NCBI GenBank assembly: GCA_903865705.1
Contig: CAIPKT010000145.1
Coordinates: forward strand, 1-36,752
Length of the DNA stretch: 36,752 nt
Source: an uncultured Chlorobiaceae bacterium
Lineage (GTDB): Bacteria > Bacteroidota > Chlorobiia > Chlorobiales > Chlorobiaceae
Direction of reading: 5' to 3'
Every line of letters starts with the position of its first letter. Within the stretch, counting starts at the first letter, position 1. Position numbers and translations under genes: made by a program. This document shows, piece by piece, positions 1,294-25,567 of this stretch. The notes under the pieces are model-generated. The model did not search any database, was not told the origin of the DNA, and worked only from the letters and a program-made list of their open reading frames with translations.

Positions 1294-3113
1294 GAGTAGC
1301 AGATTATATCGCGCAATTTATTGCTGAGCACGAGCAGATTGCCAAAACGATTTTTATGGTTTCAGGTGGTGGTAATATGCACTTGATTGATGCCCTTGGA
1401 AAAAATGATGGGCTTGAATATGTTTGTAACCATCACGAACAGGCTTGTGCCATGGCGGCTGAGGGGTATGCGCGTATATCGAACAAGATTGGCATTGCAT
1501 ACGTCACTACGGGGCCGGGTGGAACCAATGCTATAACGGGGGTTATAGGTGCATGGCTTGATTCTATTCCGATGATGATTATTTCCGGGCAGGTCAAGTT
1601 TGAAACGACGATTGCTTCACAGCCTGAATTGAACCTCAGGCAACTTGGCGATCAGGAAATAAACATTGTTGATATTGTTCGTCCCATCACCAAATATGCG
1701 GTGCTGATCATTGATAAAAACAGTGTAAGGTATCATCTTGAAAAGGCTGTTTATGAGGCGAAACATGGTCGCCCCGGCCCTGTGTGGCTTGATATTCCGC
1801 TGGATATTCAGGGAGCTCAGGTTGAACCGGGAGAACTCGTTGGGTTCAGTGCCCCAGCTGAATCGAATGATGACCTTAAAATTGATCAGGTCATAGCAGC
1901 GCTTAAAAAAGCAAAGAGACCTGTGATCATCGCGGGCAACGGCATAGCGCTTGCCGGAGCTGTTGCCGAGTTTCGTGAACTTGCAACTAGGTTGAAGATA
2001 CCGGTTATCGGAACATTTGCCCGGTATGATATTGTCAATGATGATGACGCCTTGTATGCCGGACGATTTGGTTCAGTCGGACACCGGGCCGGAAATTTCG
2101 CTGTTCAGAACAGTGACTTGATTCTGGCTATAGGAGCCCGTCTCAATATCAGGGCTGTCAGCTATAATTGGGCCTGTTTTGGCCGAGAGGCAGTCAAGAT
2201 TATTGTTGATATTGATGAAAATGAACTTAAAAAGCATACTCTTAAAGCTGATATTCCTATTTCCGCTGATGCCGGAGCATTTATCAAGGCGTTGCTGATT
2301 TCCTGTAATGCCCCTCTTGACTGTGCCGACTGGGTGAAGCAATGCCAGAATTACCGGAACAGCTTTCCAACTATTATTCCTCAGAGGCAAGCGGGTGGAG
2401 AAAAAGTTGATTCCTACAACTTTTTTGACGTGCTATCGGATTGTGCTGCCGATGATGCCATTTTTGTTTTAGGCAATGGAACGGCTTGTGTCTCATCTTA
2501 TCAGAGCCTCCGCTTGAAAGGCAGTCAGAAAGTTGTTGTTAACTCCGGTTGTGCCTCGATGGGTTACGATCTTCCTGCTGCTATTGGGGCATGGTATGCT
2601 TCACAGGATAGGCCGGTAATCTGCGTAACCGGTGATGGCAGTATGCAGATGAATATTCAGGAACTGCAAACCATTATCCACAACAAGATTCCGCTCAAAT
2701 TGTTTGTTTTGAACAATGAGGGGTACATTTCAATCCGAAATACCCAGAGGGGCTTTTTTAATGGTAATTTTGTAGGGTCAGGATGTGAGAGTGGAGTCAG
2801 TTGCCCTGACACGCTTAAGATTGCAGCTGCCTATGGGTTTCAAGGTGTTAGAATTAGTAATCAAGACCATCTCAAAGAGCAGCTTCAGTCAGCATTACAA
2901 TCTCCTGGCCCTGTTATTTGTGAAATTATGCTTGATCCTGAAGAAAAAATGGAGCCCAAGCTCTCTTCAGAGAAAAAACCTGATGGCCGCATGGTTTCCA
3001 AGCCGCTGGAAGATATGTATCCTTTTCTTGACCGTAAAGAATTCTTCAGTCATCTTCTCATTCAACCGTGGGATGAGGATGAAAAAAAAGAACGTCAAAA
3101 AGCAAAGGTCTGA
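1290..3113 (+). CDS. ThDP-dependent enzyme, acetolactate synthase/YerE-like fold
   Basis: 607 aa; N-terminal [15 protein letters not shown] (catalytic Glu region) and C-terminal GDGSMQMN...LFVLNN ThDP-binding motif; ATGA overlap with rfbH. Confidence 0.88.
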
Positions 3114-3781
3114 TGAGAGGACGTGTCGCTTTAATTACTGGCGCAACACGTGGTATTGGCAATGCCATTGCTCAGCTCTTCCTGGAGCAGGGAGCGCGGC
3201 TGCTTACCCCTACCCGTCAGGAATTGGATTTGTCGTGCAACGATTCTATAGACAGGTACTGCTCGCATATTGATCAACTAGTTGATATTGTTGTGAACAA
3301 CGCAGGAATCAATGTACTGGCGGCGGCTGATGAGTTCAGCGATACTGAATTGACCGAGATGCTTCAGGTAAATCTTGTAGCGCCGATGCGACTGTTACGT
3401 GCTCTTTCGCCAGGAATGGCTCAACGTGGTTATGGCCGAATTGTCAATATCAGCTCAATCTGGAGTGGAGTCTCAAAACCGCGCCGTTTTCTCTATTCGA
3501 CCACTAAGGCTGGAGTGAATGGGATGACTAGGGCGCTTGCGGTCGAGCTTGCTTCGTCTGGTGTTCTGGTTAATTCCGTAGCACCTGGTTTTGTCAACAC
3601 GGAGATGACCAAACAGAATAATTCTGAGGAAGCTATTGGCCACATATCGGCTTCTATTCCGGCTGGTCGCCTTGCAGAACCAGGGGAGATCGCTGAAGTT
3701 GTTGCTTTTCTTTGTTCACAGCGTAACAGCTATCTGACCGGACAAACAATTTTTGTAGATGGAGGTTTTACATGTCAGTAA
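3113..3781 (+). CDS. Short-chain dehydrogenase/reductase (SDR)
   Basis: TGATRGIG Rossmann motif, NNAG, YSTTK active site; 222 aa; overlaps neighbours. Confidence 0.9.
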
Positions 3782-4830
3782 TTGCAATTCAATCCAAACT
3801 GCGGGATTATACCGTTCATTTCCAGAATGATGTTAGCTTTATAGAAGGATTTACCCGCTTCCCGCAGAGGCTGTTTGTTATAGATGAGAACGTATGGAAA
3901 CTTCATGGTACTGGTTGTCTGGCCGCTCTTGCTGATTCTGAGCGGATTATTTTTCCGGTCAGCGAGGAGCGAAAGAATCTTGTCGGTGTCATGGAGCTTT
4001 ACGACCGTCTTATGGAGTGTTCCGCCAAAAAGAACATGACGCTTATCTCTATTGGCGGTGGAATTATTCAGGATATCACAGGTTTTGTTGCCTCGACGCT
4101 ATACCGCGGCCTCAACTGGGTTTTCGTCCCGACTACACTGCTGGCACAGGCCGATAGTTGTATCGGCAGTAAAACCTCTCTTAACTACAAGCGTTTCAAG
4201 AACCTGATCGGAACCTTTTATCCACCGTCTGAGGTGTATATCTTTTCCGGATTCCTGCAGACACTTGAAAAATATGATTTTTTGAGTGGGATGGGTGAGG
4301 TTGCCAAACTGCACATTATGGGTGGAAACGATTCGATTTCAGCTTTTGCTGTGGCTTTACCGGCACTTCTGGGGCGGGATGATGATGCTATTTTATTAGC
4401 TATCCATCGTTCACTTATGGTAAAGTTAAGCTATATGGAGGGTGATGAATTTGATACCGGACGTCGTAACTGGCTTAATTACGGTCATTGTTTCGGGCAT
4501 GCGCTTGAGACCGTAAGCGACTATGCCATTCCTCACGGTCAGGCAGTAGTAGTGGGCATGCTTGTAGCAAATCGTGTCGCCGTACAACGTGGTCTGCTTT
4601 CTGAGGTCTTTGCTCAGCGTTTAGCGGAGCAGTTTCTCGGCCCGCTGCTGGATTTCAAGTTAGAGCTTTCCGGGTATTCAATGGTTGAATTCATTACTGC
4701 AATGAGACAAGACAAGAAGCGGGTTGGCGATGGACTTGTCATGGTTATGGTGACGGATGCCATAGTGATGGTAAAAGTCGATGATGTTACCCCGGAGGAA
4801 ATAGAAATGGCTGTACAAAGCTTTTCGTAA
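3772..4830 (+). CDS. 3-dehydroquinate synthase-family sugar phosphate cyclase-like protein
   Basis: 352 aa; [53 protein letters not shown], metal-ligand motifs [16 protein letters not shown] and PHGQAV. Confidence 0.87.
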
Positions 4831-6597: not shown

Positions 6598-6993
6598 ATG
6601 AAACATCGGACTAAAATCACATACCTTATCGTCGGCGGATGGAACACACTGTTTGGTTATGCGTCCTTTTCCATCTTCTACTTTTTTTTGTCGCAAAGGT
6701 TCAACTCCACGGTTATTCTCACAATCAGTTATGTGCTAAGCATAACCAATGCTTTCATCGGCTACAAGGCCTTAGTATTTAGGACAAGAGGTAACGTGTT
6801 AAAAGAGTATATGCGCTTTTATGTGATCTACGGCGGAGCATATGTGGCCAATCTTATTCTTCTTCCTGTGCTTATGGGCATACTATTACTTAATGTATAC
6901 ATCGCTCAGGGATTGATTGTTTTTTTGACTGTGATAAGCAGTTACATTTTTCACAAGAGGTTTACTTTCAAAATGCATGAACATAAAGAGTAA
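6598..6993 (+). CDS. GtrA-family small membrane protein (polyprenyl-linked sugar flippase-like)
   Basis: Four hydrophobic segments, KITYLIVGGWNTLFGY start and SSYIFHKRFTF end typical of GtrA. ORF track starts at 6583; the Met at 6598 has a GAGG SD upstream. Confidence 0.85.
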   Translation: MKHRTKITYLIVGGWNTLFGYASFSIFYFFLSQRFNSTVILTISYVLSITNAFIGYKALVFRTRGNVLKEYMRFYVIYGGAYVANLILLPVLMGILLLNVYIAQGLIVFLTVISSYIFHKRFTFKMHEHKE

Positions 6994-9430
6994 CGTAAGG
7001 TGGTCGATCTACCTGCTGCTTCTCACAGTGAATGCCTTGTTTCTTGTTTATTCTGTTCTCGGTGCTCAAAGTGGAAGCGATATCAGCGATGATTTGTATA
7101 GTGGTGTCGCGATCTATTTTAACAGAAATAAGCCGAATGAACTGCTCGGATATCTTATAGGTGCATCGCTTCTTTTCTTGATTTATATTATTAACGTGGT
7201 AGCTCGCACCAGAACACCCTGTACAAGCACCTTGCGTTCATTAGCTCGAGCTTCGTTGAGTCTTCAGTTTAGGTGGCATAATGGCATCCATTATTTCCAT
7301 ATGATTGTGTTGCCGATCCTTGCTGTTTCATTCATAAATGATCTAAAGCCAAGGGTTTTTGTGCTGTCTTATGTGTTGCTTTACACATTATTGAACATGT
7401 ATGGTCCGAAGGTGGCTGGTTTTATGAAAAATACGATGAGTTGGCGGGCAATTTCATTATCTGTTGTAACGATGGTTATGATGTTGTTGGTCTGTCAGGT
7501 CGCATACGTATTTTCGAATCATATATGGGGCAGACCTAAGATTATCAATGAATTTTACAACATTCCGGAATACACGAAGATAGGTGGCAGTTTTGTCGAT
7601 AACTCAACATACATGAATCAGCATTTCCTGAAAGGAGTAACGAATAAATGGGATATCGAAAAAACTGATGAGCAAAGGAATTTCATAAATATCGTAATAG
7701 GCGAACATGATGTCATAAGCCCGGAAGTTAATGATTCTCTGATCTATTACAATCGGCATGATTCAAGGCTTTATCTTAACGGGGTTCTTAAATTACAAGA
7801 TCTTAAATTGTATGGGAGCGAGAAAATCTATGCAATTAACGATGAGAATAAAATCAAGAAAGATGTGTCGACCGAAAGGACGTCGAAATACAACAAACAA
7901 GAGATCCAGTATCTTTCGGATAACGCATTCGAGTTTCATTGGCAGATTTTAGATAGATACATGATACATCATCATGGATTTATACTGAACCCAGTATCAG
8001 ATCTAGAAATTGGCAAACCCTATTCCGGGATTAAGGCTCAGTACGGAATAGGTAATATTCTGGTATTTAAATTGCTAATGAAAAAACTTGGGGGCATCTC
8101 AATAGATAATTGGCTTAAGTTAAACGGAATCATTTATGTAGCCTATTATTTGGTATATGCCTTAATCCTACTGTCTGTTTTTGAGGATAAGTTATTGGCG
8201 CTGATGATATTCCTGTTGTCTGTTTTCGTCCTCAACTCTCACTTATATATGTTTTTAATTCTTGCACCTGGCAATTCGCCATGGAGGAACTTTTTTGATA
8301 TTTCTATATTGTTCGCCCTGCATCGGTATCAAAAATATAATAAGTTGATATATGCTTTATTAGCGTTACAGATGGGAGTATTTTCTGTATTTATGAATCC
8401 TGAGATCGGTATAATGATTTACGTGGCTGTCATCGTATCAATAATCGTTTATTCGTTCATTAGACTTGACTTTAAGCCAGGGTTGATTATAATGATTATT
8501 TTGTCTTTCATCGAAAGCTTATATCTATATGCTCATTTTTCTTCTAAAGGAGACCTGGCAGTATATTACCTGAAGGGAGTGATAGGATTTCCAATATCTA
8601 AAGAGGCTGTTGTTATAATATTTACCATTCTTATAACAGTTTATGCTGTATTGCTTTATGATATGAAAAACAAAAGATTCAGTCAGTACCTCCCTAAGTT
8701 ATATTTATTTATATACGCCCAGGGATTGGTGTTATATTACGTATGGCATGCGGATCAGAACGGATTAGTTGCAAGATCACATATTTATGTGCTTGTAATA
8801 GCTATGTATCTATATGATTTATCTGGGACTTTTTGGCGTAAGATGAGATTGAAATATGCCATTTATGGGTCGGTGATTATCCTGAGTTTCATCATGTATA
8901 TAGACTCAGCATCAAGGGTGTTAAGAGAAAAATCTCGGTATGAAAAAATATTTGTAAATCATAAAACATATAACTGGGATTTCGATAGGGCTAAAATCGA
9001 GTCTACTGTTAATCCTATATATTTTAGTGAGGCTATTTCACTAATAAATAAATATAACGGATCATCGTCATCTATTTGTATAATCTCGAAATATGATAAT
9101 TTATTGCCATTTCTTGCTCATAAATCGACCATTATGCCTTTTCATGATCTTAAGTGGTATAATATTACAGATAAAGAGTTACAGAAATCTATTGAGACGA
9201 TCAAAATATTACGGCCTGAATATATTTATGTGGATAGCGACATAAACAGGAATTATAATACCGATATCATACCTTCCAGTCTTTTCGGTCTTGGATACCT
9301 GCATCAAGAGTCTGTCTGGAGAGCAGAAAGGCTGAAGCTCCTTGCAATGATTTTTTACAATGTTTCTGATAGATATCAACTCGTTGAGTCTGGTCGTCTT
9401 ATGTCAGTTTATAAAAAAATACTACCATGA
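6977..9430 (+). CDS. Large polytopic membrane protein, putative Gtr-type/GT-C glycosyltransferase
   Basis: 817 aa with multiple TM segments and a long hydrophilic loop; located between gtrA-like and gtrB-like genes and overlapping both. Confidence 0.65.
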   Translation: MNIKSNVRWSIYLLLLTVNALFLVYSVLGAQSGSDISDDLYSGVAIYFNRNKPNELLGYLIGASLLFLIYIINVVARTRTPCTSTLRSLARASLSLQFRWHNGIHYFHMIVLPILAVSFINDLKPRVFVLSYVLLYTLLNMYGPKVAGFMKNTMSWRAISLSVVTMVMMLLVCQVAYVFSNHIWGRPKIINEFYNIPEYTKIGGSFVDNSTYMNQHFLKGVTNKWDIEKTDEQRNFINIVIGEHDVISPEVNDSLIYYNRHDSRLYLNGVLKLQDLKLYGSEKIYAINDENKIKKDVSTERTSKYNKQEIQYLSDNAFEFHWQILDRYMIHHHGFILNPVSDLEIGKPYSGIKAQYGIGNILVFKLLMKKLGGISIDNWLKLNGIIYVAYYLVYALILLSVFEDKLLALMIFLLSVFVLNSHLYMFLILAPGNSPWRNFFDISILFALHRYQKYNKLIYALLALQMGVFSVFMNPEIGIMIYVAVIVSIIVYSFIRLDFKPGLIIMIILSFIESLYLYAHFSSKGDLAVYYLKGVIGFPISKEAVVIIFTILITVYAVLLYDMKNKRFSQYLPKLYLFIYAQGLVLYYVWHADQNGLVARSHIYVLVIAMYLYDLSGTFWRKMRLKYAIYGSVIILSFIMYIDSASRVLREKSRYEKIFVNHKTYNWDFDRAKIESTVNPIYFSEAISLINKYNGSSSSICIISKYDNLLPFLAHKSTIMPFHDLKWYNITDKELQKSIETIKILRPEYIYVDSDINRNYNTDIIPSSLFGLGYLHQESVWRAERLKLLAMIFYNVSDRYQLVESGRLMSVYKKILP

Positions 9431-11076: not shown

Positions 11077-11133
11077 TGAGCGCTTATCTTATAAAAATGT
11101 ATGAAGATTATTGATTTAAGTGGTAGAGGTGTT

Positions 11134-13905
11134 ATGAAAGTGCTCGTAATTATTGCAATGATCTTTATTAGCATTTTTATATCTTTTAAGGTCTATCCTG
11201 AAGCGTTTAGTTTTAAATCAAAAGATATCGTTTTTGATAAGCAGTATTATGACATAAGATCAATAAATATATACGAGAAGGCAATTGGTGAGTTAGCTGT
11301 AGACCCGACTTCTAAAGTGGATATTCAAATCAATTTTCTTTTTAAGATGCCTGAAAATGGTCTAAAATCTGAATATGAGAATATTTTCCAGACGGCTGAT
11401 CTGAATAATGGTCTTAGAATGGAAGTGTCAAAGAAAAGTGGTGTTATTGCACTGATATATAACAGCGGGGACAGGGATAACAAGGTTTTGACTTCAATTG
11501 TCTTGATCGATCATGCAGAGATCGATACAGCAGTCTATCATAATGTCGCAATACAAATCAAAAACGGTACTGTCATCAATATTAATATTGATGGTCAGGC
11601 AGTTAGACGCGCTATAGATCCGAATTGTATAGAATTATCCCGAATTCTTGTTGGACAAGGGTTTGATAATTCACGCAAGTTTTCAGGTATTATAAAAAAT
11701 TTCAAACTCAAGGCACGATGCTATTATAAAATCCCGTCTAAAACAATTGGCAATATTGCAGGAGTTAGTGCGCTTATAATTCTCAGTATTATTTCTTTTT
11801 ATGGTATAAGCAATAAAAATAAACTTATTTCAATAATACATGCCGTAATATCAGTGCTTGTAGTTTATTGGGTTGCGATTTTTTATAAGCATTATATGTC
11901 AGATGCTGGTATAACATTTGATCAACTTTTAACAAATCTTGTTATAATTACTGTTGGCGTTCTTTTGTCAGCGCTGGTTGGACTGATAGATAGAAAGCGA
12001 ACCAGTTTAGGCATTGCATGGTTGATGATCCTTGCGGCAATATGTCATCTTTATTTTCGTGGAGATTTAGTTACGACGATAACTATTGTTTTTTTGATGA
12101 TAGTATATATTTTGTTTGATATATATGTTGGCGATTTAAAGAAATTTGCATTTATCTACGGGGTGCTAGCAGTCTTTTTAAATGTTCCGAATTTAATCCC
12201 CTGGATTAGTATAAGTGTTTACTATGAAATTATATTTACAGCGATAGTTTTATCTTTTGTATCCTATTTACTGATCTTTACTAAAAAAGATCTTATATCT
12301 AAAAGAAATTCTATAGAATACGCGTATTATGAACGTGTTACTTTATATTTATTTGTATGTGTTATGTTATTTGGGGCATTTGTTTATAGCTTTGTTTGGG
12401 ATGATTTAAATGGAACTCTATGGGTACCAAAGGTTAGCGTCATTAAAGATCATTCCATAGTAGGAGTCAACTTGCCTGCCACATTGACTTTTATGTCGAT
12501 ACATAATTTGGGATACTTGACTTCTTTATATTGGCTGTTTTCACATAATGAGCTAATTGATAAGATATTTGCATGGAAGAACTTTAATGCGTGGTTGTAT
12601 ATATCATCTGTTTTGTTGTTTTATAAATATAACAGACCGTTTATAAGAAGGGGCGGTATCGCTTTGATGTGTTTGCTGTTATATGCTTTTATTCCTGGGT
12701 ATATGTATGGCGAGGTGACGGGTAATAATAGTGATTATGCCTTAGTAATCTCTACGTTTATTGTTGTTGGGGACATTTTGACTCGCAAAAAGATAAGGCA
12801 TAATGATTTGCTTGTTTTCTCAGCACTTTTAGCTGTGTCACCTAAATCTTTTATAGTTATTGGTCCATATTTTCTTATAAAGATAATTGAAGACCCTGAG
12901 CTTAGAGCAAATATTTTAACGTATAATTACATTTGGAGAGCGGGCGTTGGTTTATTGTTAATTGCGCCTGTCTATTTACGGAATTATATTATTAGCGGAA
13001 ACCCAACATTTCCTGCTGGTAACATTAATATTAAAAGTCCTTTATTTGATATTACGGGCATAGTGGCTGATAAGTATAGGGTTCCTGGTGGTGTATCATT
13101 ATATAATTATTTTGATTTATTAGTCAATAAATATGATGGTATTAAAAATTTTTATGCATCTGATCTGCGTTATTATGGACCGGTATTTTTAACTTTAATA
13201 TGTATTTTATTTTATTGTTTTGTAGTGAAGATGATGGCTATTAATATAAGGAGAAATTATCTTGTCATTGATAGAGGCGTTTATATTCTTTTTCTCGTTT
13301 CTGTTCTTGGTTTTCTTTTTGCCAGTGCATTTACAGGTTTGCAGCACAGGTATCTTTATTCTGTTATTGTGGCAGAATCTGTTTTAGTGGTTTTATTAAT
13401 ATATAGAAACTCGGGTCCAAAAAAAGATTATGTTGGTGTTATTGTCATTATTTTGGTAAGCGCATTGTATACTCCAATGATTATTATATCTCCAAGTGTT
13501 TTTGGGGAGTATGTGGTAAAAAACGGCTATTTTGCAGGTAGCGAGGACAAGTGGACAAAAAGGTGCGAATTTTATCGAGATGTAAATTTAAAAATAAGTG
13601 ACGGTGAAGGGGTACTAATGTCATATGTCCAAGATAAGGTATTTATAGATTCCACAAATAATTTGTATGAACTTGATTGGTATGATTACCCTAAAACCAA
13701 TGCTCTTGTCAAGTCTTTCGATTTAATTGATCGGTCAAATATTGATAAAGCTAGGATAGCAGGATGTAAGATATTGAAAAAAAATGGCATTAAATGGCTA
13801 CTATTAACTAAAGCTCGTGACCCTTTTGGGATGGATATCCGATGTGTATTAATTAAGGTTGTTGATGGACATGATTTGGATTTGAATTTGTATAAAATCC
13901 CCTAA
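11134..13905 (+). CDS. Polytopic membrane protein, putative GT-C glycosyltransferase with N-terminal LamG/lectin-like periplasmic domain
   Basis: ORF track start 11101; Met at 11134 (MKVLVIIAMIFISIFISFKVYP) has SD-like AGAGGT. A ~200-aa hydrophilic region follows, then many TM helices and YLRNYIISGNPTFP, a motif seen in GT-C-like proteins. Confidence 0.68.
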   Translation: MKVLVIIAMIFISIFISFKVYPEAFSFKSKDIVFDKQYYDIRSINIYEKAIGELAVDPTSKVDIQINFLFKMPENGLKSEYENIFQTADLNNGLRMEVSKKSGVIALIYNSGDRDNKVLTSIVLIDHAEIDTAVYHNVAIQIKNGTVININIDGQAVRRAIDPNCIELSRILVGQGFDNSRKFSGIIKNFKLKARCYYKIPSKTIGNIAGVSALIILSIISFYGISNKNKLISIIHAVISVLVVYWVAIFYKHYMSDAGITFDQLLTNLVIITVGVLLSALVGLIDRKRTSLGIAWLMILAAICHLYFRGDLVTTITIVFLMIVYILFDIYVGDLKKFAFIYGVLAVFLNVPNLIPWISISVYYEIIFTAIVLSFVSYLLIFTKKDLISKRNSIEYAYYERVTLYLFVCVMLFGAFVYSFVWDDLNGTLWVPKVSVIKDHSIVGVNLPATLTFMSIHNLGYLTSLYWLFSHNELIDKIFAWKNFNAWLYISSVLLFYKYNRPFIRRGGIALMCLLLYAFIPGYMYGEVTGNNSDYALVISTFIVVGDILTRKKIRHNDLLVFSALLAVSPKSFIVIGPYFLIKIIEDPELRANILTYNYIWRAGVGLLLIAPVYLRNYIISGNPTFPAGNINIKSPLFDITGIVADKYRVPGGVSLYNYFDLLVNKYDGIKNFYASDLRYYGPVFLTLICILFYCFVVKMMAINIRRNYLVIDRGVYILFLVSVLGFLFASAFTGLQHRYLYSVIVAESVLVVLLIYRNSGPKKDYVGVIVIILVSALYTPMIIISPSVFGEYVVKNGYFAGSEDKWTKRCEFYRDVNLKISDGEGVLMSYVQDKVFIDSTNNLYELDWYDYPKTNALVKSFDLIDRSNIDKARIAGCKILKKNGIKWLLLTKARDPFGMDIRCVLIKVVDGHDLDLNLYKIP

Positions 13906-15001: not shown

Positions 15002-16492
15002 ATGAAACTTGTTTTGATCCAGACTCCATGGTCGAATGCATCATCTCATGAATATAAGAGTGTTGCTAAGCGTTTCGCGTTCTATCCACCTTTAGGTCTT
15101 ATGTGCATTGCTGCTTCTGTTGAACAAGCAGGTCATTTTGCTGATATAATCGACTTAGAAGTCGAAAACTTAAGTTTCGATGAGTTGAGGAAACGTGTAG
15201 CAGATTTTGAGCCGGATATCATTGGTTTAACTGCGAGCACGCCAGTGTTTCATATTGTGCGAGATTATGCTGTAGAATTACGCACTCATTTTGACATTCC
15301 AATCGTCGTTGGCGGGCCTCACATTAGTGCGTTAAAGGAGCATGCGTTTTATCCTGAGTTTGATTTCTTGGTAGTTCAAGAAGGCCATAATACTATGGTT
15401 GAACTTATGGATGCATTGGAAGCTGAGATAACTGACTTTAGTCTGATTAATGGTTTGATTTGGAAAAACAGTGACGATAAAAAAATAGTGAAAAATCCAG
15501 GACGCGCTTTTACCACGGATTTGGATTCTTTGCCGTTACCAGCACGACATAAAGCTGATCCGAAAAACTATGTGTTTGAGGTTCCAGGTCGGGGATCAAT
15601 CCCGGTGGCAACTATTGAGCTGACCAGAGGCTGTCCATTTAAATGCGTTTTTTGTTCAGAGCCGTTAAACACTGGTTCACAACTACGGAAAAGATCACCC
15701 AGAAGCGTAGTGGATGAGATGGTTATAGTGCAAGAACGGTTTGGAATTAATCACTTTATGACGTTAGATTCGACCTTGACATTAAATCGCAAGTTAATAG
15801 TCGATATTTGCAATGAAATTATCGATCGTAAAGTTCAAATTACTTGGGAGGGTCAGACTAGGGCCAATTTGATTGATAAAGAATTGCTTGTGCTGCTTAA
15901 AAAAGCAGGTTTAGTTCGACTTGGCTTTGGAGTGGAGAGCGCTGATGAACATGTGCTCACATTGATGAAGAAAAAGGTTAACCCACAGGATATGCGAGAG
16001 GCATTTCGATTATGCGGTGAATTAAAAATTTCTACCATGTGCGGTACAATGATGGGTAATCCCGGTGATACACGTCAAAGTATTCTCAAAACAGCGTGGT
16101 TTGTTCGTTCTATACCTGAAGTACGCTACGCGCCTATGGCCATCGCAATTCCTTATCCTGGAACAGAACTGGCATTATTGGCAGAACAAAATATGCATGG
16201 CTTGAGGTTGTTGGACGCAGACTTTACAAAATATTCTCGTTATGCCGGTGGCGTTATGGAAGTAAATGGAATGATGCCATCTGATCTTATTAAGTTACAA
16301 AGAGTTGCTTTGTTTATAATTCATTCAACTCCATCTAAGGTTTGGGGGTTAGTTACTCACTTTGGTTTATGGAATGTTTTGGCAGTAAGTTTAAAACAAC
16401 TTAAAAATCAAATTCTTTCGATAGTTACTGGTGAAGAACCGACTTTACGTGCTAATGTAATTCATGATAATACCACTATAAAAAGTCTTTAA
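15002..16492 (+). CDS. B12-binding-domain radical SAM protein
   Basis: N-terminal cobalamin-binding-like domain (DIIGLTASTPVF, PIVVGGPHISA), cluster motif TRGCPFKCVFCSE (CxxxCxxC), GFGVESADEHVL. Confidence 0.92.
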   Translation: MKLVLIQTPWSNASSHEYKSVAKRFAFYPPLGLMCIAASVEQAGHFADIIDLEVENLSFDELRKRVADFEPDIIGLTASTPVFHIVRDYAVELRTHFDIPIVVGGPHISALKEHAFYPEFDFLVVQEGHNTMVELMDALEAEITDFSLINGLIWKNSDDKKIVKNPGRAFTTDLDSLPLPARHKADPKNYVFEVPGRGSIPVATIELTRGCPFKCVFCSEPLNTGSQLRKRSPRSVVDEMVIVQERFGINHFMTLDSTLTLNRKLIVDICNEIIDRKVQITWEGQTRANLIDKELLVLLKKAGLVRLGFGVESADEHVLTLMKKKVNPQDMREAFRLCGELKISTMCGTMMGNPGDTRQSILKTAWFVRSIPEVRYAPMAIAIPYPGTELALLAEQNMHGLRLLDADFTKYSRYAGGVMEVNGMMPSDLIKLQRVALFIIHSTPSKVWGLVTHFGLWNVLAVSLKQLKNQILSIVTGEEPTLRANVIHDNTTIKSL

Positions 16493-17488: not shown

Positions 17489-17905
17489 ATGAATATTTCT
17501 GATTTTAAAATAAGAGATAATTTTTTCATTTTTTATAAATTTGGATTAGTGGGAGGATCAGCCACAATAATTTTTTTCATTGTTATGTGGGTTAGTCAGG
17601 CAGTTTTTAATATGTACTATGTCTTGGCGATTAGTATTGCTTATTTATTAGCGTCAGCTTTTAATTTTTTTACAAATATTCATTTTACTTTTAGGGCAGC
17701 AAAAGATAGACGAGAACGTCAACTTATTCGATATCTCACGGTTTGGTCGTTGAATTATGCTATTACGATTTCTATAGTTGGTATTTGTGTTGAACGATTT
17801 CATCTTTCATCTTATCTCGGCGTATGTGTAGCAGTAATTTTAACAACGTTGATAAGCTATCTGTTATCACGATATTGGGTATTTAAAATCAAGGAGAATG
17901 CATGA
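17489..17905 (+). CDS. GtrA-family membrane protein
   Basis: YKFGLVGGSATIIFFIVMW, FNFFTNIHFTF, SYLLSRYWVFK; four TM segments. Confidence 0.88.
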   Translation: MNISDFKIRDNFFIFYKFGLVGGSATIIFFIVMWVSQAVFNMYYVLAISIAYLLASAFNFFTNIHFTFRAAKDRRERQLIRYLTVWSLNYAITISIVGICVERFHLSSYLGVCVAVILTTLISYLLSRYWVFKIKENA

Positions 17906-18861
17906 GTTGTTATGTTGTAACCGGTTGTGCTGGTTTTATTGGTAGTACCTTGGTTGATCGTCTGCTGGCTGATGGTCATCAGGTGACTGGTGTTGATAAC
18001 TTTTCAACTGGCCAACGCAAATTTCTTGATAAGGCATTGGCACATCAGAATTTTCGGCTGATTGAAATTGATCTTTTGGACCTTGATGCACTGAAAATAG
18101 CGGTAGCCGGTAATGACGCAGTTTTTCATCTTGCAGCGAATGCTGATGTCCGTTTTGGGACTGAGCATCCTCGCAGGGATCTTGAGCAGAATACGATTGC
18201 TACTTATAATGTGCTTGAGGCCATGCGTGCCAACGGGATAAAGAAAATTGCCTTTTCTTCTACAGGGTCTGTATATGGCGAGTCACCGGTTGTGCCAACG
18301 CCTGAAGATGGGCCCTTTCCTATCCAGACTTCACTCTATGGTGCTTCCAAGGCTGCTTGCGAGGGATTGATTGCGGCATACTGCGAGGGGTTTGGGTTTC
18401 AATCATGGATTTTCCGTTTCGTATCTATCCTTGGTGAGCGTTATACCCATGGGCATGTTTTTGATTTTTATCAAAAATTAAAGGCTGATCCTTCATGCCT
18501 GCCGGTGCTTGGCAATGGCAAGCAACGTAAATCGTACCTATATGTTCAGGATTGTATTGATGCGATCCTGCTGGCAATGAACAAGGCTTCCGATAAGGTT
18601 AACATCTTCAATCTTGGTGTTGACGGCTATTGCGAAGTGAACGACTCTGTTGGCTGGATTTGTGATGAGCTTGGTGCTAAGCCTGAACTGCAATATTCAG
18701 GTGGAGACCGTGGCTGGATTGGGGATAATCCCTTCATATTTCTTGATACCCGGAAGATTCAGTCGTTAGGCTGGACTCCAAAAATCGGTATTCGTGAAGG
18801 TGTTATTAAAACAGTAGAGTTTTTACGCAGTAATGAATGGGTATTTGACGCGAGGAGTTGA
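17902..18861 (+). CDS. NAD-dependent epimerase/dehydratase (UDP-sugar 4-epimerase-like)
   Basis: TGCAGFIGSTLVDRLL, FHLAANADVR, SSTGSVYGE, YGASKAACE. Confidence 0.92.
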   Translation: MSCYVVTGCAGFIGSTLVDRLLADGHQVTGVDNFSTGQRKFLDKALAHQNFRLIEIDLLDLDALKIAVAGNDAVFHLAANADVRFGTEHPRRDLEQNTIATYNVLEAMRANGIKKIAFSSTGSVYGESPVVPTPEDGPFPIQTSLYGASKAACEGLIAAYCEGFGFQSWIFRFVSILGERYTHGHVFDFYQKLKADPSCLPVLGNGKQRKSYLYVQDCIDAILLAMNKASDKVNIFNLGVDGYCEVNDSVGWICDELGAKPELQYSGGDRGWIGDNPFIFLDTRKIQSLGWTPKIGIREGVIKTVEFLRSNEWVFDARS

Positions 18862-20168
18862 TCATGAAAGTATGTGTACAAGGTCTTTGGCATCTGGGTC
18901 CGGTAACTTCGGCCTGTCTTGCATCTATTGGGCATGATGTGGTGGGGTTGGATATAGATCAAAAAATTGTTGATAGGTTAAGCCAAGGGAAGGCGCCAAT
19001 TTATGAACCTGCTCTTGATCAACTGATAGTTGAAGAAATAGCTATGGGGCGGCTTCGATTTTCAACTGACGGAGCAGATGCGCTCGCCGGTGCGGAAGTG
19101 CTTTGGGTTACATTTGATACTCCTGTTGATGATGATGATCAGGCTGATGTTGAATTTGTTCTAAATCAGATCAAGAGTGTTTTGCCTCTCTTGGCTGATG
19201 GGACAATTGTATTGGTTTCCTCCCAATTGCCCGTAGGCTCAATTCGCAAGCTTGAAGAGTTTGTGTTGGAAAATCTGGCTGAAAAACAGCTCAGCTTTGC
19301 ATGTTCTCCCGAAAACCTCCGACTGGGCAAAGCTCTTGATGTATTCTTGAATCCAGATCGAATAGTGGTCGGCATTCGTAGTGATGATGATCGTTGCAAG
19401 TTGGAAAAATTGTTATTGCCAATAACTGACAGGATAGAATGGATGTCTGTCGAGTCGGCCGAGATGACAAAGCATGCAATCAATGCATTTTTGGCTACAT
19501 CCGTAACGTTTGCCAATGAGATTGCATCAATATGTGAGACGGTTGGAGCTGATGCCAAGGAGGTTGAGCGAGGTTTAAAGAGTGAACAGCGTATTGGGCC
19601 TAAAGCTTACTTGTCTCCAGGCGGTCCTTTTGCCGGAGGGACATTGGCACGTGATATTGAGTTTCTTGGTGTTGCATGCCGTGCAAAACAGTTACTGACC
19701 CCGCTGCTCTCTTCGGTTCGATCTAGTAATGATGAACATAAACATTGGGTGCGTCGAAAGTTGCTTGAGAATTTTGGCGAAATGAAAGGGGTGTTGGTAG
19801 CGGTATGGGGGTTAACCTACAAGCCTGGTACCGATACGTTACGCCGTTCTCTTTCTGTGGAGCTTTGCGACTGGTTGATTGAGCAGGGTGCTCTTGTGCA
19901 TGTGCATGATCCGGTTGTTCAACAATTACCAGATCGATGGACAGATAGAGTGGTAAACCACGTAAAAGCGCTGGATGCGGTGGTCGATGCAGATGCGCTG
20001 GTAATAGGTACCGAATGGCCAGAGTTTCGCGAGGCAGCAGAGAACCTTCTTTCGGTTGTAAAGCCTGATTTGATTGTGATTGATGCCAACAGGCACTTGC
20101 TCAAGGTGGTTGCCGCTTTTGGGCTAAAATATATCGCAGTAGGAACCTCTTTGACTAACAAAGTTTGA
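18858..20168 (+). CDS. UDP-glucose/GDP-mannose dehydrogenase-family protein lacking the canonical catalytic Cys motif
   Basis: Rossmann VCVQGLWHLGPVTSACLASIGHDVVGLDID; AEMTKHAINAFLATSVTFANEIA (Lys/Asn retained); expected GGxCFxKD replaced by SPGGPFAGGTLARD. Confidence 0.87.
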   Translation: MIMKVCVQGLWHLGPVTSACLASIGHDVVGLDIDQKIVDRLSQGKAPIYEPALDQLIVEEIAMGRLRFSTDGADALAGAEVLWVTFDTPVDDDDQADVEFVLNQIKSVLPLLADGTIVLVSSQLPVGSIRKLEEFVLENLAEKQLSFACSPENLRLGKALDVFLNPDRIVVGIRSDDDRCKLEKLLLPITDRIEWMSVESAEMTKHAINAFLATSVTFANEIASICETVGADAKEVERGLKSEQRIGPKAYLSPGGPFAGGTLARDIEFLGVACRAKQLLTPLLSSVRSSNDEHKHWVRRKLLENFGEMKGVLVAVWGLTYKPGTDTLRRSLSVELCDWLIEQGALVHVHDPVVQQLPDRWTDRVVNHVKALDAVVDADALVIGTEWPEFREAAENLLSVVKPDLIVIDANRHLLKVVAAFGLKYIAVGTSLTNKV

Positions 20169-20171
20169 TTC

Positions 20172-21047
20172 ATGCAAAAAGTTTTATCAGGTAAGGTTGC
20201 CATAGTTACCGGCGCAAATCAGGGACTTGGTTTGTCAATCGCTAAAAAATATGTGCTGGCCGGGGCTGATGTTATGTTATGTGCCCGAAATGCGGCGCTG
20301 TTGAATGAAGTTGAGGCTGATTTTCTCAAAATAACAGAGCCTGGCCAAAAGGTCATTGCCATGGCAATGGATGTTTCTGTTGAGGCTGAAGTGCAGGCTC
20401 TTGTGAAAGAGACGCTCGAGAGGCTCGGTGGTTGCCACATTCTTGTGAATAACGCTGGTATTTATGGGCCTAAAGGTGAGATTGAGTCGGTCGATTGGGC
20501 TGAATGGGTCAAGACAATCGAGATTAACGTGTTCGGTTCCATTTTGATGTGTCGGGCTCTTCTGCCGCATTTTAAAGCGCAAGGGTACGGAAAGGTGATT
20601 CAGCTTTCCGGTGGTGGAGCAACAAACCCATTGCCAAGAATCAGTGCCTATGCAACGTCTAAGGCGGCAATTGTGAGATTTGCCGAGACTCTGGCTGAAG
20701 AGGCCAGGGGTACGGGTATTGATGTTAATGCGGTTGCTCCTGGCGCCTTGAATACCAGGATGCTTGATGAAGTTCTTGAAGCTGGTCCGAAAAAAGTAGG
20801 GCAGGCTTTTTATGATCGGGCTGTAAAGCAAAAAGAGTCAGGTGGAGCTCCGCTTGACCGGGGTGCTGATCTTGCTTTGTTTTTAGCTTCTGCGGAGAGC
20901 GATGGTATTACCGGCAAGCTCATAAGTGCGGTTTGGGATGATTGGGAGCATTGGCCTGAACATGTTGATGATCTGTCATCGAGTGATGTTTATACCCTGC
21001 GCCGTATAGTCGGGCGGGATAGAGGCTTTACCTGGGGGGATAAATGA
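20172..21047 (+). CDS. SDR-family oxidoreductase
   Basis: TGANQGLGLSIA, NNAGIYG, SAYATSKAA. Confidence 0.92.
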   Translation: MQKVLSGKVAIVTGANQGLGLSIAKKYVLAGADVMLCARNAALLNEVEADFLKITEPGQKVIAMAMDVSVEAEVQALVKETLERLGGCHILVNNAGIYGPKGEIESVDWAEWVKTIEINVFGSILMCRALLPHFKAQGYGKVIQLSGGGATNPLPRISAYATSKAAIVRFAETLAEEARGTGIDVNAVAPGALNTRMLDEVLEAGPKKVGQAFYDRAVKQKESGGAPLDRGADLALFLASAESDGITGKLISAVWDDWEHWPEHVDDLSSSDVYTLRRIVGRDRGFTWGDK

Positions 21048-22054
21048 GCAGTGTTGAGGGAATATATGGGATCGGGATTGTCGGCTGTGGCATTATTGGC
21101 CAAAAACGGGCAAAAGCGTTGGGAAGCGGAGGACGGCTGGTGGCTTGTGCGGATATTGATATCACCCGTTCTGAATATCTTGCAAAAGGGTCGGGTGCCA
21201 AGGCGTTTCTTGACTGGCACGAGTTGATTGAGTTGCCGGAAGTGGATATCGTGGTTATTGCTACGCTGCATAATTCGCTGGCAGAGATTACGCTGGCAGC
21301 GATCAATGCCGGCAAGCATGTTCTGGTAGAAAAACCTGCTGCACGTTCGGCGACTGAACTTGAGCCGGCCATTGCAGCCGCTGAAAAGCAGAATGTGAAA
21401 GTGCATGTAGGGTTTAATCATCGTTATCACCGTGCGTTGCGCAAGGCAAAGGAGATTGTTGATTCTGGTGAGTTGGGAGAGCTGATGTTTATCCGGGCTC
21501 GCTATGGTCACGGTGCCCGGATTGGTTACGACAGGGAGTGGCGGGCAAATCCTGCGCTTTCCGGTGGTGGTGAGTTGATCGACCAGGGGCCTCATTTAAT
21601 TGACCTTTCGCGTTGGTTTCTCGGCGAGTTTGTTGAGGTGCAGGGTTTTGCCCACACTTATTACTGGGATATGCCGGTCGATGATAATGGTTTTATGATG
21701 CTCAAGACAGAGAAGCAGCAGGTCGCTTTTCTTCATGCTTCGTGCACCGAGTGGAAGAACCTTTTTTCGATGGAGATTTATGGTAGGGCAGGCAAGCTTG
21801 ATATTTCCGGCCTGGGAGGAAGCTATGGTGTGGAACGGTTGACCTACTACAAGATGCTTCCGGAAATGGGGCCTCCGGAAACCACTTCCTGGGAATACCC
21901 GATGGGGGATGACTCCTGGATGGTGGAGATGGCTGAGTTTTATGAGGATATTCGTTTGAATCGCACACCCTCTGCAGGTTTGAATGATGCTTATGAAGCG
22001 CTTAAGATAATTCAGCAAATTTACAAGGAGTCAGGTTATGATCATTGCGCGTAG
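21044..22054 (+). CDS. Gfo/Idh/MocA-family oxidoreductase
   Basis: GIVGCGIIGQKRAKAL, HVLVEKPAAR, ELIDQGPHLIDLSRWFLGE. Confidence 0.92.
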   Translation: MSSVEGIYGIGIVGCGIIGQKRAKALGSGGRLVACADIDITRSEYLAKGSGAKAFLDWHELIELPEVDIVVIATLHNSLAEITLAAINAGKHVLVEKPAARSATELEPAIAAAEKQNVKVHVGFNHRYHRALRKAKEIVDSGELGELMFIRARYGHGARIGYDREWRANPALSGGGELIDQGPHLIDLSRWFLGEFVEVQGFAHTYYWDMPVDDNGFMMLKTEKQQVAFLHASCTEWKNLFSMEIYGRAGKLDISGLGGSYGVERLTYYKMLPEMGPPETTSWEYPMGDDSWMVEMAEFYEDIRLNRTPSAGLNDAYEALKIIQQIYKESGYDHCA

Positions 22055-23021
22055 TCCTTTGCGCATTACACTGGGTGGTGGTGGTACTGATCTGCCCTCA
22101 TATTACCGGAACAATGAAGGGTTTTTGGTATCGGCTGCTATCGACAAGTATGTCTATGTCACGGTTATGCGACCGTTTACAGAGGGGATCTATCTCAAGT
22201 ATTCGCAACTTGAGCAGGTCAGCAAGATTGTTGATGTACAGCATCCGATTATTCGTGAAGCACTCGACATGCTTGGATTCAGAACGCCTCAGGTTGAAAT
22301 TACAACGCTTGCGGATATCCCGGCTGGCACTGGCCTTGGTTCTTCCGGCAGTTTTACGACAGCCTTGTTGAAAGCATTGTATACTCACCGTAAGCGCCAT
22401 CTACATCAGGAAGAGCTTGCTGAATTGGCGTGCCATATTGAAATTGATCGCCTTGGTGAACCCATTGGCAAACAGGATCAATACATCGCGGCCATTGGAG
22501 GAATTACCTGTTTTACCTTCCATAAAGATGACAAAGTGACTGCTGTGCCCCTGGATATCAGTATGGATACCCTGCTTGATCTTGAGGACAACTTGTTGCT
22601 GTTTTTTACCGGTTTTTCGCGCAGTGCCAGCGGCATTCTCAAAGACCAGCAGGTACGGTCTCAGAAAAACGACGAGGATATGCTCAATAACCTGCACTAT
22701 GTCAAGGATTTAGGTTATCTCAGCAAAGAATCTCTGGAAAATGGCGATACCACTCTTTTTGGTGAGCTGATGCATGAACATTGGGAGCATAAAAAGCGTC
22801 GTTCGGGAGGTATGAGCAATCCTCAGATTGATGAGTGGTATGAGCTGGGTATGAACAACGGTGCCGTTGGAGGGAAACTTGTAGGAGCAGGGGGCGGAGG
22901 ATTTTTGATGTTTATGGCTCGTGACAGGAGCAAATTGCGCTCGGCAATGGCCAATGCCGGATTGGAAGAGGTTCGCTTCCGTTTCGATTTTGAAGGGAGC
23001 AAAGTAATGATGTCCTCCTGA
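22038..23021 (+). CDS. hddA: GHMP kinase, D-glycero-D-manno-heptose 7-phosphate kinase-like
   Basis: RSPLRITLGGGGTDLPSYY, PAGTGLGSSGSFTTALL, KLVGAGGGGFLMF; position in an HddA/HddC/GmhA/GmhB-like set. Confidence 0.85.
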   Translation: MIIARSPLRITLGGGGTDLPSYYRNNEGFLVSAAIDKYVYVTVMRPFTEGIYLKYSQLEQVSKIVDVQHPIIREALDMLGFRTPQVEITTLADIPAGTGLGSSGSFTTALLKALYTHRKRHLHQEELAELACHIEIDRLGEPIGKQDQYIAAIGGITCFTFHKDDKVTAVPLDISMDTLLDLEDNLLLFFTGFSRSASGILKDQQVRSQKNDEDMLNNLHYVKDLGYLSKESLENGDTTLFGELMHEHWEHKKRRSGGMSNPQIDEWYELGMNNGAVGGKLVGAGGGGFLMFMARDRSKLRSAMANAGLEEVRFRFDFEGSKVMMSS

Positions 23022-23725
23022 TGCTGCCGGTAGCGATTCTTGCGGGGGGGTTGGCAACACGGTTGCATCCGATTACTGAAACGATTCCCAAGTCGCTTGT
23101 CGACGTTGCAGGAATACCATTTATTGTTCGTCAACTCGACTACCTTCAACACCAAGGCATTACCGACGTCATCCTGTGTATTGGCTACCTTGGTGAACAG
23201 GTGAAAGCACTGGTGGGTGATGGTTCATCTTTTGGGCTGAAGGTTACCTACTCGTGGGATGGTCCAAAGTTAATGGGGACTGGTGGTGCATTAAGGCAGG
23301 CTCTTCCATTATTGGGGGAACAGTTTTTTGTTTTTTATGGAGATTCCTATTTGCCCATAGATTTCAGGAAAGTGGAAAAATCTTTTATTCATAGTTGCAA
23401 GCCTGCATTGATGACGGTTCTCCGTAATGGGGATTTGTGGGACAAGAGCAATGTATTGTTTTTGGATGGCATTCTTATAGAGTATAATAAGCGCAATCCC
23501 ATCCCTGAGATGGCTTATATTGACTACGGACTTGGGATTGTATCTGCTGTCGTTTTAAAAGATGTGCCGCTTGATGAGCCGTTTGATTTGGCTGATATTT
23601 ATCACAATCTCTCAGTTCAGGGCGATTTGGCAGGGTATGAAGTGTTTGAGCGTTTTTATGAGATTGGATCGCTTAAGGGGTTGGAGGAAACCGTTAATTA
23701 TTTTCAAAAGGGAGAAAAAACATGA
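23021..23725 (+). CDS. hddC: Sugar-phosphate nucleotidyltransferase (HddC-like)
   Basis: AILAGGLATRLHPITETIPKSLVDVAGIPF signature; next to HddA-like kinase. Confidence 0.82.
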   Translation: MLPVAILAGGLATRLHPITETIPKSLVDVAGIPFIVRQLDYLQHQGITDVILCIGYLGEQVKALVGDGSSFGLKVTYSWDGPKLMGTGGALRQALPLLGEQFFVFYGDSYLPIDFRKVEKSFIHSCKPALMTVLRNGDLWDKSNVLFLDGILIEYNKRNPIPEMAYIDYGLGIVSAVVLKDVPLDEPFDLADIYHNLSVQGDLAGYEVFERFYEIGSLKGLEETVNYFQKGEKT

Positions 23726-24321
23726 GTTATACCGCTCAGCATTTACATGAGGCCCTGGAAATTATTCGTAGCCTTGATGTTGGTGCCATAGAAAAAATGG
23801 CTGATTTGTTGGTTACGGTAAAAGCAGAGGGTGGCCGGATTTTCTTTTTGGGTGTTGGCGGCAGTGCAGGTAATTGCTCTCATGCAGTAAACGATTTTCG
23901 AAAGATTGTGGGGATTGAATCCTATGCTCCGACAGATAATGTTTCTGAGCTGACTGCGCGTACCAATGATGAGGGTTGGGCAACGATTTTTGCGGGTTGG
24001 CTGCAAACAAGCAAGCTTTCTCCGAAAGATGCGCTTTTTATTTTTTCCGTCGGGGGCGGTAATCTGGAAAAAAATATCAGTCCGAATTTGGTTGAAGCTC
24101 TCAAATATGCCAAAACAGTAGGGGCCAAGGTGGCTGGAGTGGTTGGGCGTGATGGTGGTTATACCGCGCAGGTCGCTGATGCCTGTGTAATCGTGCCGAC
24201 CGTGAACCCTGATAATATAACGCCGCATTCAGAGGCCTTTCAGGCTGTGATCTGGCATCTTCTTGTTTCACATCCCAAGCTGAAGGCCAATCAGACCAAG
24301 TGGGAATCTACCGTTAAATAG
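23722..24321 (+). CDS. SIS-domain sugar isomerase (GmhA-like)
   Basis: IFFLGVGGSAGNCSHAVNDF, FSVGGGNLEKN, TPHSEAFQAVIWHLL; 199 aa. Confidence 0.85.
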   Translation: MSYTAQHLHEALEIIRSLDVGAIEKMADLLVTVKAEGGRIFFLGVGGSAGNCSHAVNDFRKIVGIESYAPTDNVSELTARTNDEGWATIFAGWLQTSKLSPKDALFIFSVGGGNLEKNISPNLVEALKYAKTVGAKVAGVVGRDGGYTAQVADACVIVPTVNPDNITPHSEAFQAVIWHLLVSHPKLKANQTKWESTVK

Positions 24322-24864
24322 ATGCGAAAGGCTGTTTTTCTTGATCGGGATGGTGTGATTAATCGCGCTATGGTTCGCAATGGTAAACCCTATCCACCAG
24401 CCAATATCAACGAAGTTGAAATATTGCCGGGTGTTTCGGAGGCATTGGCTGCACTGCATGATGCAGGTTTCATGCTGATTGTGGTGACAAACCAGCCCGA
24501 TGTTGCCAGGGGGACAACACCGAAGGCGGTTGTAGAGGAGATCAACCATTATTTGGGAAGGTGTTTGCCTATTGACGAGTTCCGGACTTGTTATCATGAT
24601 GGCGATGACGGTTGCGATTGCCGCAAGCCACTGCCCGGGGCACTGTTGGCAGCAGCACAAATGCATGGTATTGATCTCAATGAGAGCTATATGATTGGTG
24701 ATCGCTGGCGGGATACTGAATCAGGGGTGCGTGCGGGTTGTAAAACTATTTTTATTGATTACGGATACGATGAACAACAGCCGGAATCTTTCACTTTTAG
24801 CGTAAAGTCATTAAAAGAAGCCTCTACAATTATTTTAGGAGAGACCCCTTATGAAAAATATTGA
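24322..24864 (+). CDS. HAD-IIIA phosphatase, GmhB-like heptose bisphosphate phosphatase
   Basis: AVFLDRDGVIN, VVTNQPDVARG, CYHDGDDGCDCRKPLPG (Cys/His Zn-loop), MIGDRWRDTESG. Confidence 0.88.
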   Translation: MRKAVFLDRDGVINRAMVRNGKPYPPANINEVEILPGVSEALAALHDAGFMLIVVTNQPDVARGTTPKAVVEEINHYLGRCLPIDEFRTCYHDGDDGCDCRKPLPGALLAAAQMHGIDLNESYMIGDRWRDTESGVRAGCKTIFIDYGYDEQQPESFTFSVKSLKEASTIILGETPYEKY

Positions 24865-25567
24865 AACATTAAAGGTTAAAATCTTTGCAGATGGCGCAGA
24901 TAAAGACGGCATGCTTGAAATGTATGAAAAACCTTACATCAAGGGATTAACGACCAATCCTACCTTGATGAAAAAGGTGGGCATAACCGATTATCGGGCA
25001 TTTTGCAAGGATATTCTTACCCATATCAAGGATAAACCGCTTTCATTTGAAGTTTTTTCGGATGACTTTGACGAAATGGAGCGCCAGGCAATGGAAATTA
25101 CCGGTTGGGGCGAAAATGTTTACGTCAAGATTCCAGTGACCAATACCAGGCAGGAAACCTGTTATGCTCTCGTTAAAAAGTTGGCTGCCCAAAAAGTTAA
25201 ACTGAATGTAACAGCACTGATGACGCTGAATCAGGTGCGTGATGTGGTTGCTTCTCTCAATCCGGATGTTCCAAGTTATGTTTCGGTATTTGCAGGGCGG
25301 ATTGCCGATACTGGTCGTGATCCTGTTCCGATGATGGCCGCTGCCGTCGAGGAGCTTAAAATTGCTCCATCCGCTGAATTGATTTGGGCAAGTCCTCGGG
25401 AATTGCTGAATATCTTTCATGCCAATGATATTGGTTGTCACGTGATTACCGTTACCAATGATATTCTCAAAAAATTATCGTTGGTCGATTATGATCTCGA
25501 TACGTACTCTCTTGATACGGTAAAGATGTTTTATAATGATGCCGTGGCGGCTGGCTTTTCTTTATAA
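24851..25567 (+). CDS. Small transaldolase-family protein
   Basis: IFADGADKDGM, KGLTTNPTLM, VYVKIPV (Schiff-base Lys), VSVFAGRIADTGRDP. Confidence 0.9.
   Translation: MKNIETLKVKIFADGADKDGMLEMYEKPYIKGLTTNPTLMKKVGITDYRAFCKDILTHIKDKPLSFEVFSDDFDEMERQAMEITGWGENVYVKIPVTNTRQETCYALVKKLAAQKVKLNVTALMTLNQVRDVVASLNPDVPSYVSVFAGRIADTGRDPVPMMAAAVEELKIAPSAELIWASPRELLNIFHANDIGCHVITVTNDILKKLSLVDYDLDTYSLDTVKMFYNDAVAAGFSL

Follow-up and report, generated by a model that had tools for sequence, protein, structure and literature searches.

The 36,752-nucleotide stretch analysed here (the window), from an uncultured Chlorobiaceae bacterium, encodes at 18858-20168 a UDP-glucose dehydrogenase relative that has lost the acid-forming cysteine. 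In the UDP-glucose 6-dehydrogenase (UGDH) mechanism this cysteine traps the aldehyde, allowing a second oxidation to the acid, and its loss raises the question of what such an enzyme makes. Our preferred answer, to which we assign a probability of roughly two in three, is that it is an octose enzyme of the type of LmbL, from lincomycin biosynthesis, and that it forms no uronate.

The reading frame is intact, with a stop-free translation of 436 residues, and translation probably starts at ATG 18864 instead of TTG 18858, since homologues open with MKV or MKI. All three UGDH domains are present (PF03721, 5e-40; PF00984, 4e-22; PF03720, 2e-21), and the nearest solved sequences are UGDHs (3gg2 at 4e-76; BceC, 2y0e, at 2e-69). 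The AlphaFold model (pLDDT 93.9) has the UGDH fold at a TM of about 0.9; model and fold comparison together back a predicted UGDH architecture and nothing beyond it. The gene and its diagnostic segments are as follows.

18858..20168, + strand: Cys-less UGDH-family protein, LmbL counterpart (domains, alignment, trees, model)
18882..18899, + strand: GLWHLG, the glycine-rich dinucleotide loop, Trp-His replacing Gly-Tyr
19308..19328, + strand: PENLRLG, residues 151-157, first Glu (E152) kept and Leu156 in place of the second Glu
19458..19496, + strand: AEMTKHAINAFLA, residues 201-213, catalytic Lys205 and Asn209 kept
19614..19655, + strand: SPGGPFAGGTLARD, residues 253-266, Thr262 at the catalytic Cys column and catalytic Asp266 kept

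In the HMMER alignment FAGGTLARD stands over GGSCFPKD, which puts Thr262 at the catalytic cysteine. The original prediction had described a GGxCFxKD-type motif without its Cys, a PENLRLG segment without its second Glu and an intact Lys/Asn segment, and each of these is borne out. Two further invariant changes can be added: the loop motif GxGYVG has become GLWHLG, and the catalytic Thr (T118 in Streptococcus numbering, T131 in human) has become Gln123. An alignment of homologues had been proposed to decide whether the Cys-less motif marks a conserved subfamily, and it does: the changed residues are invariant in 32 diverse Cys-less members. The Trp and His of the loop are likewise invariant in 32 members from cassettes of the kind described below and in five lincosamide-type proteins, and absent from 29 canonical UGDHs. 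A diagnostic set of W11, H12, Q123, N153, L156, H206, T262, L263 and R265 is common to the cassette and lincosamide-cluster proteins and occurs in 0 of the 29 canonical enzymes. Set against the canonical uronate-forming enzymes, the protein thus has the domains, the fold and the Lys, Asn and Asp, and lacks the catalytic Cys, the catalytic Thr and the second Glu. The retained Lys, Asn, Asp and Glu would fit an alcohol-to-carbonyl step.

Spread of the motif was surveyed with a degenerate DNA pattern for FAGGTLARD, which returned at least 116 genome-contig stretches and one viral contig. With chance matches removed (L089, for example, matched in an unrelated frame), at least 113 loci encode a protein matching the query besides the window and its close relative L002, so that the Cys-less motif is shared by at least 115 loci from many phyla, archaea included. 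Among the matches listed are Verrucomicrobia, Planctomycetes, Proteobacteria, Chloroflexi, Acidobacteria, Nitrospirae and Elusimicrobia, as well as a cyanobacterium, Frankia, Gottesmanbacterium, Methanoperedens and another archaeon. The pattern itself selects for Thr, and members found by other means served as the control: Thr is kept in all Verrucomicrobiae members recovered by profile (L186 reads IAGGTLTRD) and in five of five Streptomyces proteins found independently of the motif. Chance is excluded, as the 32 diverse members carry the changes without exception and the members found without the motif carry them too. Four loci from Kiritimatiellae and a Rhodospirillaceae MAG (L041, L066, L068, L100) form a divergent Cys-less branch with GLWHQG instead of GLWHLG.

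Phylogeny gives the same grouping. When the tree is rooted on WecC-type enzymes, the 36 Cys-less proteins fall into a single clade (support 100/99) against 15 Cys enzymes that include the distant outgroup; an earlier tree with more canonical enzymes gave 100/100, with a long-branch warning. The clade takes in the proteins of the lincomycin-like (lmb-like) Streptomyces clusters described below. A first profile search had as its top Streptomyces matches (L147-L156) canonical enzymes with the Cys, and these then served as outgroup; a search of the class Actinomycetes at a threshold of 1e-118 gave no match because the lincosamide members score lower. On alignment and trees, then, the Cys-less proteins are a conserved subfamily and not a decayed gene. 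A decayed canonical UGDH was considered and rejected, given the cross-phylum invariance and the separate canonical copy in the genome. The nearest relative among the matches listed, at 83% identity, lies on a 109,772-base contig of an uncultured Chlorobiaceae MAG (G019, locus L117). A same-phylum sample of 297 genomes held no match beyond the window's own genome, and for this reason the host has probably acquired the cassette horizontally.

The Cys-less gene is the second of nine in a cassette spanning 17902-25567, in the order epimerase (EpiB), Cys-less UGDH, short-chain dehydrogenase (SDRb), Gfo, GHMP kinase, nucleotidyltransferase, SIS, HAD, transaldolase. Its other members are these.

17902..18861, + strand: EpiB, NAD-dependent epimerase/dehydratase, LmbM counterpart (PF01370, 1.9e-48)
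20172..21047, + strand: SDRb, classical short-chain dehydrogenase (PF00106, 7e-52), in place of the aminotransferase LmbS
21044..22054, + strand: Gfo/Idh/MocA oxidoreductase, LmbZ counterpart (PF01408/PF22725; 35-38% identity to the protein of lmb-like clusters)
22038..23021, + strand: GHMP sugar kinase, LmbP counterpart, HddA-like (NF049969, 9e-50, below cut-off)
23021..23725, + strand: sugar-1-phosphate nucleotidyltransferase, LmbO counterpart (PF00483; 28-36% identity to the protein of lmb-like clusters)
23722..24321, + strand: SIS-domain sugar-phosphate isomerase, LmbN counterpart (PF13580; bit scores and tree)
24322..24864, + strand: HAD-IIIA phosphatase, LmbK counterpart, GmhB-like (TIGR01656, 9.7e-34, above cut-off)
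24851..25567, + strand: transaldolase, LmbR counterpart (PF00923, 1.6e-39; KIP-motif Lys93 invariant in the alignment; tree)

This gene set travels with the Cys-less enzyme. Among the matches listed, EpiB is found in 81 of the 86 loci with at least 1 kb of upstream sequence, and SDRb and Gfo in all 25 with at least 5.6 kb downstream; those same 25 hold the kinase and nucleotidyltransferase in 23 cases, SIS and HAD in 18 and the transaldolase in 16. The set also occurs on plasmids of Lawsonia intracellularis and Rhizobium jaguaris. On Lawsonia intracellularis plasmid 3 (L138:16952-25303) the isomerase, HAD, transaldolase, Cys-less UGDH, SDR, Gfo, kinase and nucleotidyltransferase lie in one block, with an epimerase homologue about 7 kb away, and a 96-kb contig filed as viral in IMG/VR (L137:1709-7401) carries the epimerase, Cys-less UGDH, SDR, Gfo, kinase and nucleotidyltransferase. 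An LmbS-type aminotransferase was looked for as a DegT match near the cassette, and neither L138/L139 nor the loci up to 8 kb long showed one; the RfbH-like DegT protein of the window is about 17 kb distant and seems to belong to a different sugar pathway. The cassette is flanked by glycosyltransferases and by an MsbA-like ABC transporter.

Elsewhere in the window, region 235-4830 has the look of a second exotic sugar pathway, one whose product may be a branched or cyclised sugar. It encodes an RfbH-type 3-dehydrase that lacks its N-terminus (633.8 bits), a TPP enzyme resembling acetolactate synthase, an SDR, and a putative sugar-phosphate phospholyase related to AroB, which scores 398.7 bits with TIGR04425 (cut-off 400). 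Large proteins of 817 and 934 residues, encoded at 6977-9430 and 11101-13905 in the most AT-rich part of the window, had no Pfam match at 1e-5. A B12-binding radical SAM protein is encoded inside the glycan locus at 15002-16492, its best family match being BchE (7e-55, below cut-off).

The cassette's enzyme classes are those of the lincomycin octose pathway. For that pathway the transaldolase LmbR, the C8 isomerase LmbN, the C8 phosphatase LmbK and the C8 guanylyltransferase LmbO are confirmed and LmbL is predicted to be a C8 dehydrogenase (PMC4351081), while GDP-octose is converted to GDP-lincosamide by LmbM, LmbL, CcbZ and CcbS (PMC12945683); the enzyme classes also include the kinase LmbP, the epimerase LmbM, the oxidoreductase LmbZ and the aminotransferase LmbS (PMC4351081; PMC12945683). 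Searching Streptomyces-type genomes with the cassette transaldolase profile recovered five clusters, which are lmb-like and not verified S. lincolnensis genes, their genus being assigned from the search route and the clusters themselves. Their gene order (HAD, Cys-less UGDH, EpiB, SIS, Gfo, GHMP kinase, nucleotidyltransferase, DegT, transaldolase) matches lmbK-L-M-N-Z-P-O-S-R, and in one of them (G538) the transaldolase was matched by profile only. As in lincosamide clusters, PmbA/TldD proteins are encoded in both of the two closest, and one or other of the pair also has genes for an MDMPI protein, a glycosyltransferase, methyltransferases and a WS/DGAT-type acyltransferase. The UGDH-like proteins of these two clusters likewise lack the Cys (AAFSGSTLQRD and AAFSGATLRRD, with GLWHLG and PENLRLG). 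Three of the Streptomyces clusters (L166, L167, L168) form a separate lincosamide-like group in which the loop reads GDWHLA, with the Trp and His kept, possibly reflecting a distinct, uncharacterised octose product.

Between the window and its lincosamide counterparts, protein identities run from about 25% to 48%. The HAD phosphatase reaches 44-48% in the two best lmb-like clusters, and the GHMP kinase cassette profile scores 144-218 bits against these clusters. EpiB is about 40% identical to their epimerase, and at that level it is no closer to LmbM-type proteins than to an archaeal GalE-like structure. SDRb had no match in the lmb-like Streptomyces clusters. In sum, the window has a cluster of counterparts of LmbR, LmbN, LmbP, LmbK, LmbO, LmbM, LmbL and LmbZ, with no LmbS-type aminotransferase beside them. 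Because SDRb replaces the aminotransferase, the end product must differ from lincosamide.

From these partners we infer a GDP-octose substrate and the following pathway. The transaldolase, SIS isomerase, GHMP kinase, HAD phosphatase and nucleotidyltransferase would build a nucleotide-activated, probably GDP-linked, eight-carbon aldose, which EpiB, the Cys-less UGDH, the Gfo/Idh protein and SDRb would then remodel. Using NAD, Lys205, Asn209 and Asp266, the Cys-less enzyme would oxidise the secondary C6 hydroxyl of GDP-octose to a ketone. The ketone would most likely drive loss of the C8 hydroxyl, water being eliminated across C7-C8, and return of the hydride to C8 would complete an internal 6,8-dehydration to a 6-keto-8-deoxy-octose. 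SDRb would then reduce the 6-ketone in place of the lincomycin aminotransferase, giving a GDP-8-deoxy-octose donor for the surface glycan of the flanking glycosyltransferases; it is these glycosyltransferases and the MsbA-like transporter that suggest a surface glycan. A secondary alcohol such as octose C6 cannot become an acid, which would explain why the thioester Cys and the hydrolysis residues were lost. The 6,8-dehydration step itself is tentative, at slightly under even odds, and depends on homology to LmbL and the role attributed to it: in a 2020 PNAS abstract LmbM, LmbL, CcbZ and CcbS are said to perform 6-epimerisation, 6,8-dehydration, 4-epimerisation and 6-transamination, in that order. 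The original prediction, that the enzyme carries out a two-electron redox step or another reaction, therefore stands only in part: four-electron oxidation to a uronate is unlikely on the residues present, while simple two-electron oxidation gives way to what may be a redox-neutral dehydration. As the net reaction is perhaps redox-neutral, zero NADH need not mean an inactive enzyme.

The strongest competitor shares the octose substrate and drops the deoxygenation. Here the enzyme would be a plain NAD-dependent 6-dehydrogenase releasing ketone and NADH, and SDRb would re-reduce the ketone with the other stereochemistry, the pair acting as a two-enzyme epimerase. The published prediction of LmbL as a C8 dehydrogenase (PMC4351081) favours such a reaction, as does the SDR gene directly 3' in nearly every locus among the matches listed; EpiB, however, already supplies an epimerase. 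The loop Trp may signify altered, tightly held NAD, which would suit an internal redox cycle. We consider this alternative unlikely, though not negligible, and continue to prefer the internal 6,8-dehydration.

A less probable alternative concerns the substrate. The cassette could yield a modified GDP- or NDP-heptose, with the Cys-less enzyme oxidising the secondary C6 hydroxyl, for example for 6-epimerisation; loss of the Cys would be equally sensible there, the heptose C6 also being a secondary alcohol. Family models do name heptose enzymes for the kinase, isomerase and phosphatase, and the best PDB matches of the kinase are heptose-phosphate kinases, yet the heptose equivalog cut-offs are unreached for the kinase, isomerase and GmhB. 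The isomerase profile scores lincosamide LmbN-like proteins at 115-133 bits and other SIS/GmhA-type proteins at no more than 78 in the genomes searched. With the transaldolase profile, the two closest lincosamide proteins reach 167 and 139 bits, whereas ordinary transaldolases reach 123 and 114; the remaining three lincosamide proteins score about 100. In the isomerase tree the cassette SIS and LmbN-type proteins group together (98/94) apart from the GmhA-type, with a long-branch warning; in the transaldolase tree the cassette and lincosamide proteins group at 100/100 apart from the ordinary transaldolases, of which only two were included, and the same warning applies. Sedoheptulose 7-phosphate is a central metabolite, so that a dedicated transaldolase is unneeded in a heptose pathway and fits octulose 8-phosphate instead. 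Octose is favoured over heptose because isomerase and transaldolase side with the lincosamide proteins; a heptose substrate, weakened by these trees, is improbable. Where the original prediction suggested a heptose-derived nucleotide sugar, the partner enzymes indicate an eight-carbon, lincosamide-type sugar.

Continued uronate formation, by another nucleophile or by direct oxidation of the hydrate, could appeal to the overall fold and the several catalytic residues kept, but throughout the clade the Cys, catalytic Thr and second Glu have all been exchanged, invariantly and together, and a normal UGDH with its Cys (L169) is encoded in the same genome. The search for another active-site Cys, which the original prediction had named as evidence against itself, found no conserved replacement at the equivalent place or near the active site in the clade alignment, and that possibility was discarded. 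The sole near-invariant Cys, Cys226, is also a Cys in 12 of the 29 canonical enzymes and is missing from the lincosamide-type proteins. We regard uronate synthesis as very improbable. A non-catalytic remnant or regulatory pseudoenzyme, to which the loss of the textbook nucleophile might point, is still more improbable, as the invariant Lys, Asn, Asp and Glu and a cassette tightly conserved across phyla argue for selection for activity.

Taken together, the data suggest that an unusual eight-carbon sugar is incorporated into the surface glycans of many microbes that are not related to one another. Rather speculatively, and with somewhat less than an even chance of being right in full, we propose a widespread, previously unrecognised nucleotide-octose pathway. 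It would be a sister to the lincosamide pathway, without the amination, and would deliver 8-deoxy-octose to surface glycans in many bacterial phyla and some archaea, its signature being a UGDH-fold uronate synthase turned sugar dehydratase. In a limited literature search, straight-chain octoses made by such a route were found for lincosamide antibiotics only. If the proposal is correct, octose would be a common constituent of microbial surfaces that has so far been overlooked, and the signature of Thr for Cys with GLWHLG and PENLRLG would re-annotate many proteins now called "UDP-glucose" or "nucleotide sugar dehydrogenase". The cassette would point to an older pool as the possible source of the antibiotic pathway, and the enzyme would provide a clean case of a family dropping its signature nucleophile once the oxidised carbon became secondary.

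Among known systems, UDP-glucose 6-dehydrogenase (3gg2; BceC, 2y0e) has in common with the Cys-less protein the fold, the three domains, the active-site Lys, Asn and Asp and the first Glu; the Cys-less protein differs in having Thr for Cys, Gln for the catalytic Thr, Leu for the second Glu and Trp in the dinucleotide loop. The WbpA/WbpB pathway pairs a UGDH-family enzyme with a Gfo/Idh oxidoreductase, as the cassette does, but WbpA is a Cys-dependent uronate former on UDP-GlcNAc and the pathway is without octose-building genes, whereas the cassette has these and a Cys-less enzyme. The GDP-D-glycero-alpha-D-manno-heptose pathway (GmhA, HddA, GmhB, HddC) supplies the same isomerase, kinase, phosphatase and nucleotidyltransferase classes but has no dedicated transaldolase, and the cassette isomerase sides with LmbN-type proteins, not GmhA-type. 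The closest likeness is to LmbL/CcbL, which processes GDP-octose in lincomycin and celesticetin biosynthesis and is represented here by the LmbL-position proteins of the lmb-like clusters, with which the window enzyme shares the Cys-less UGDH subfamily, the diagnostic residues and the partner enzymes. At about 30-37% identity, and with an SDR beside it instead of an LmbS-type aminotransferase, the window enzyme differs from this type also in its setting, which is glycan assembly and not an antibiotic cluster.
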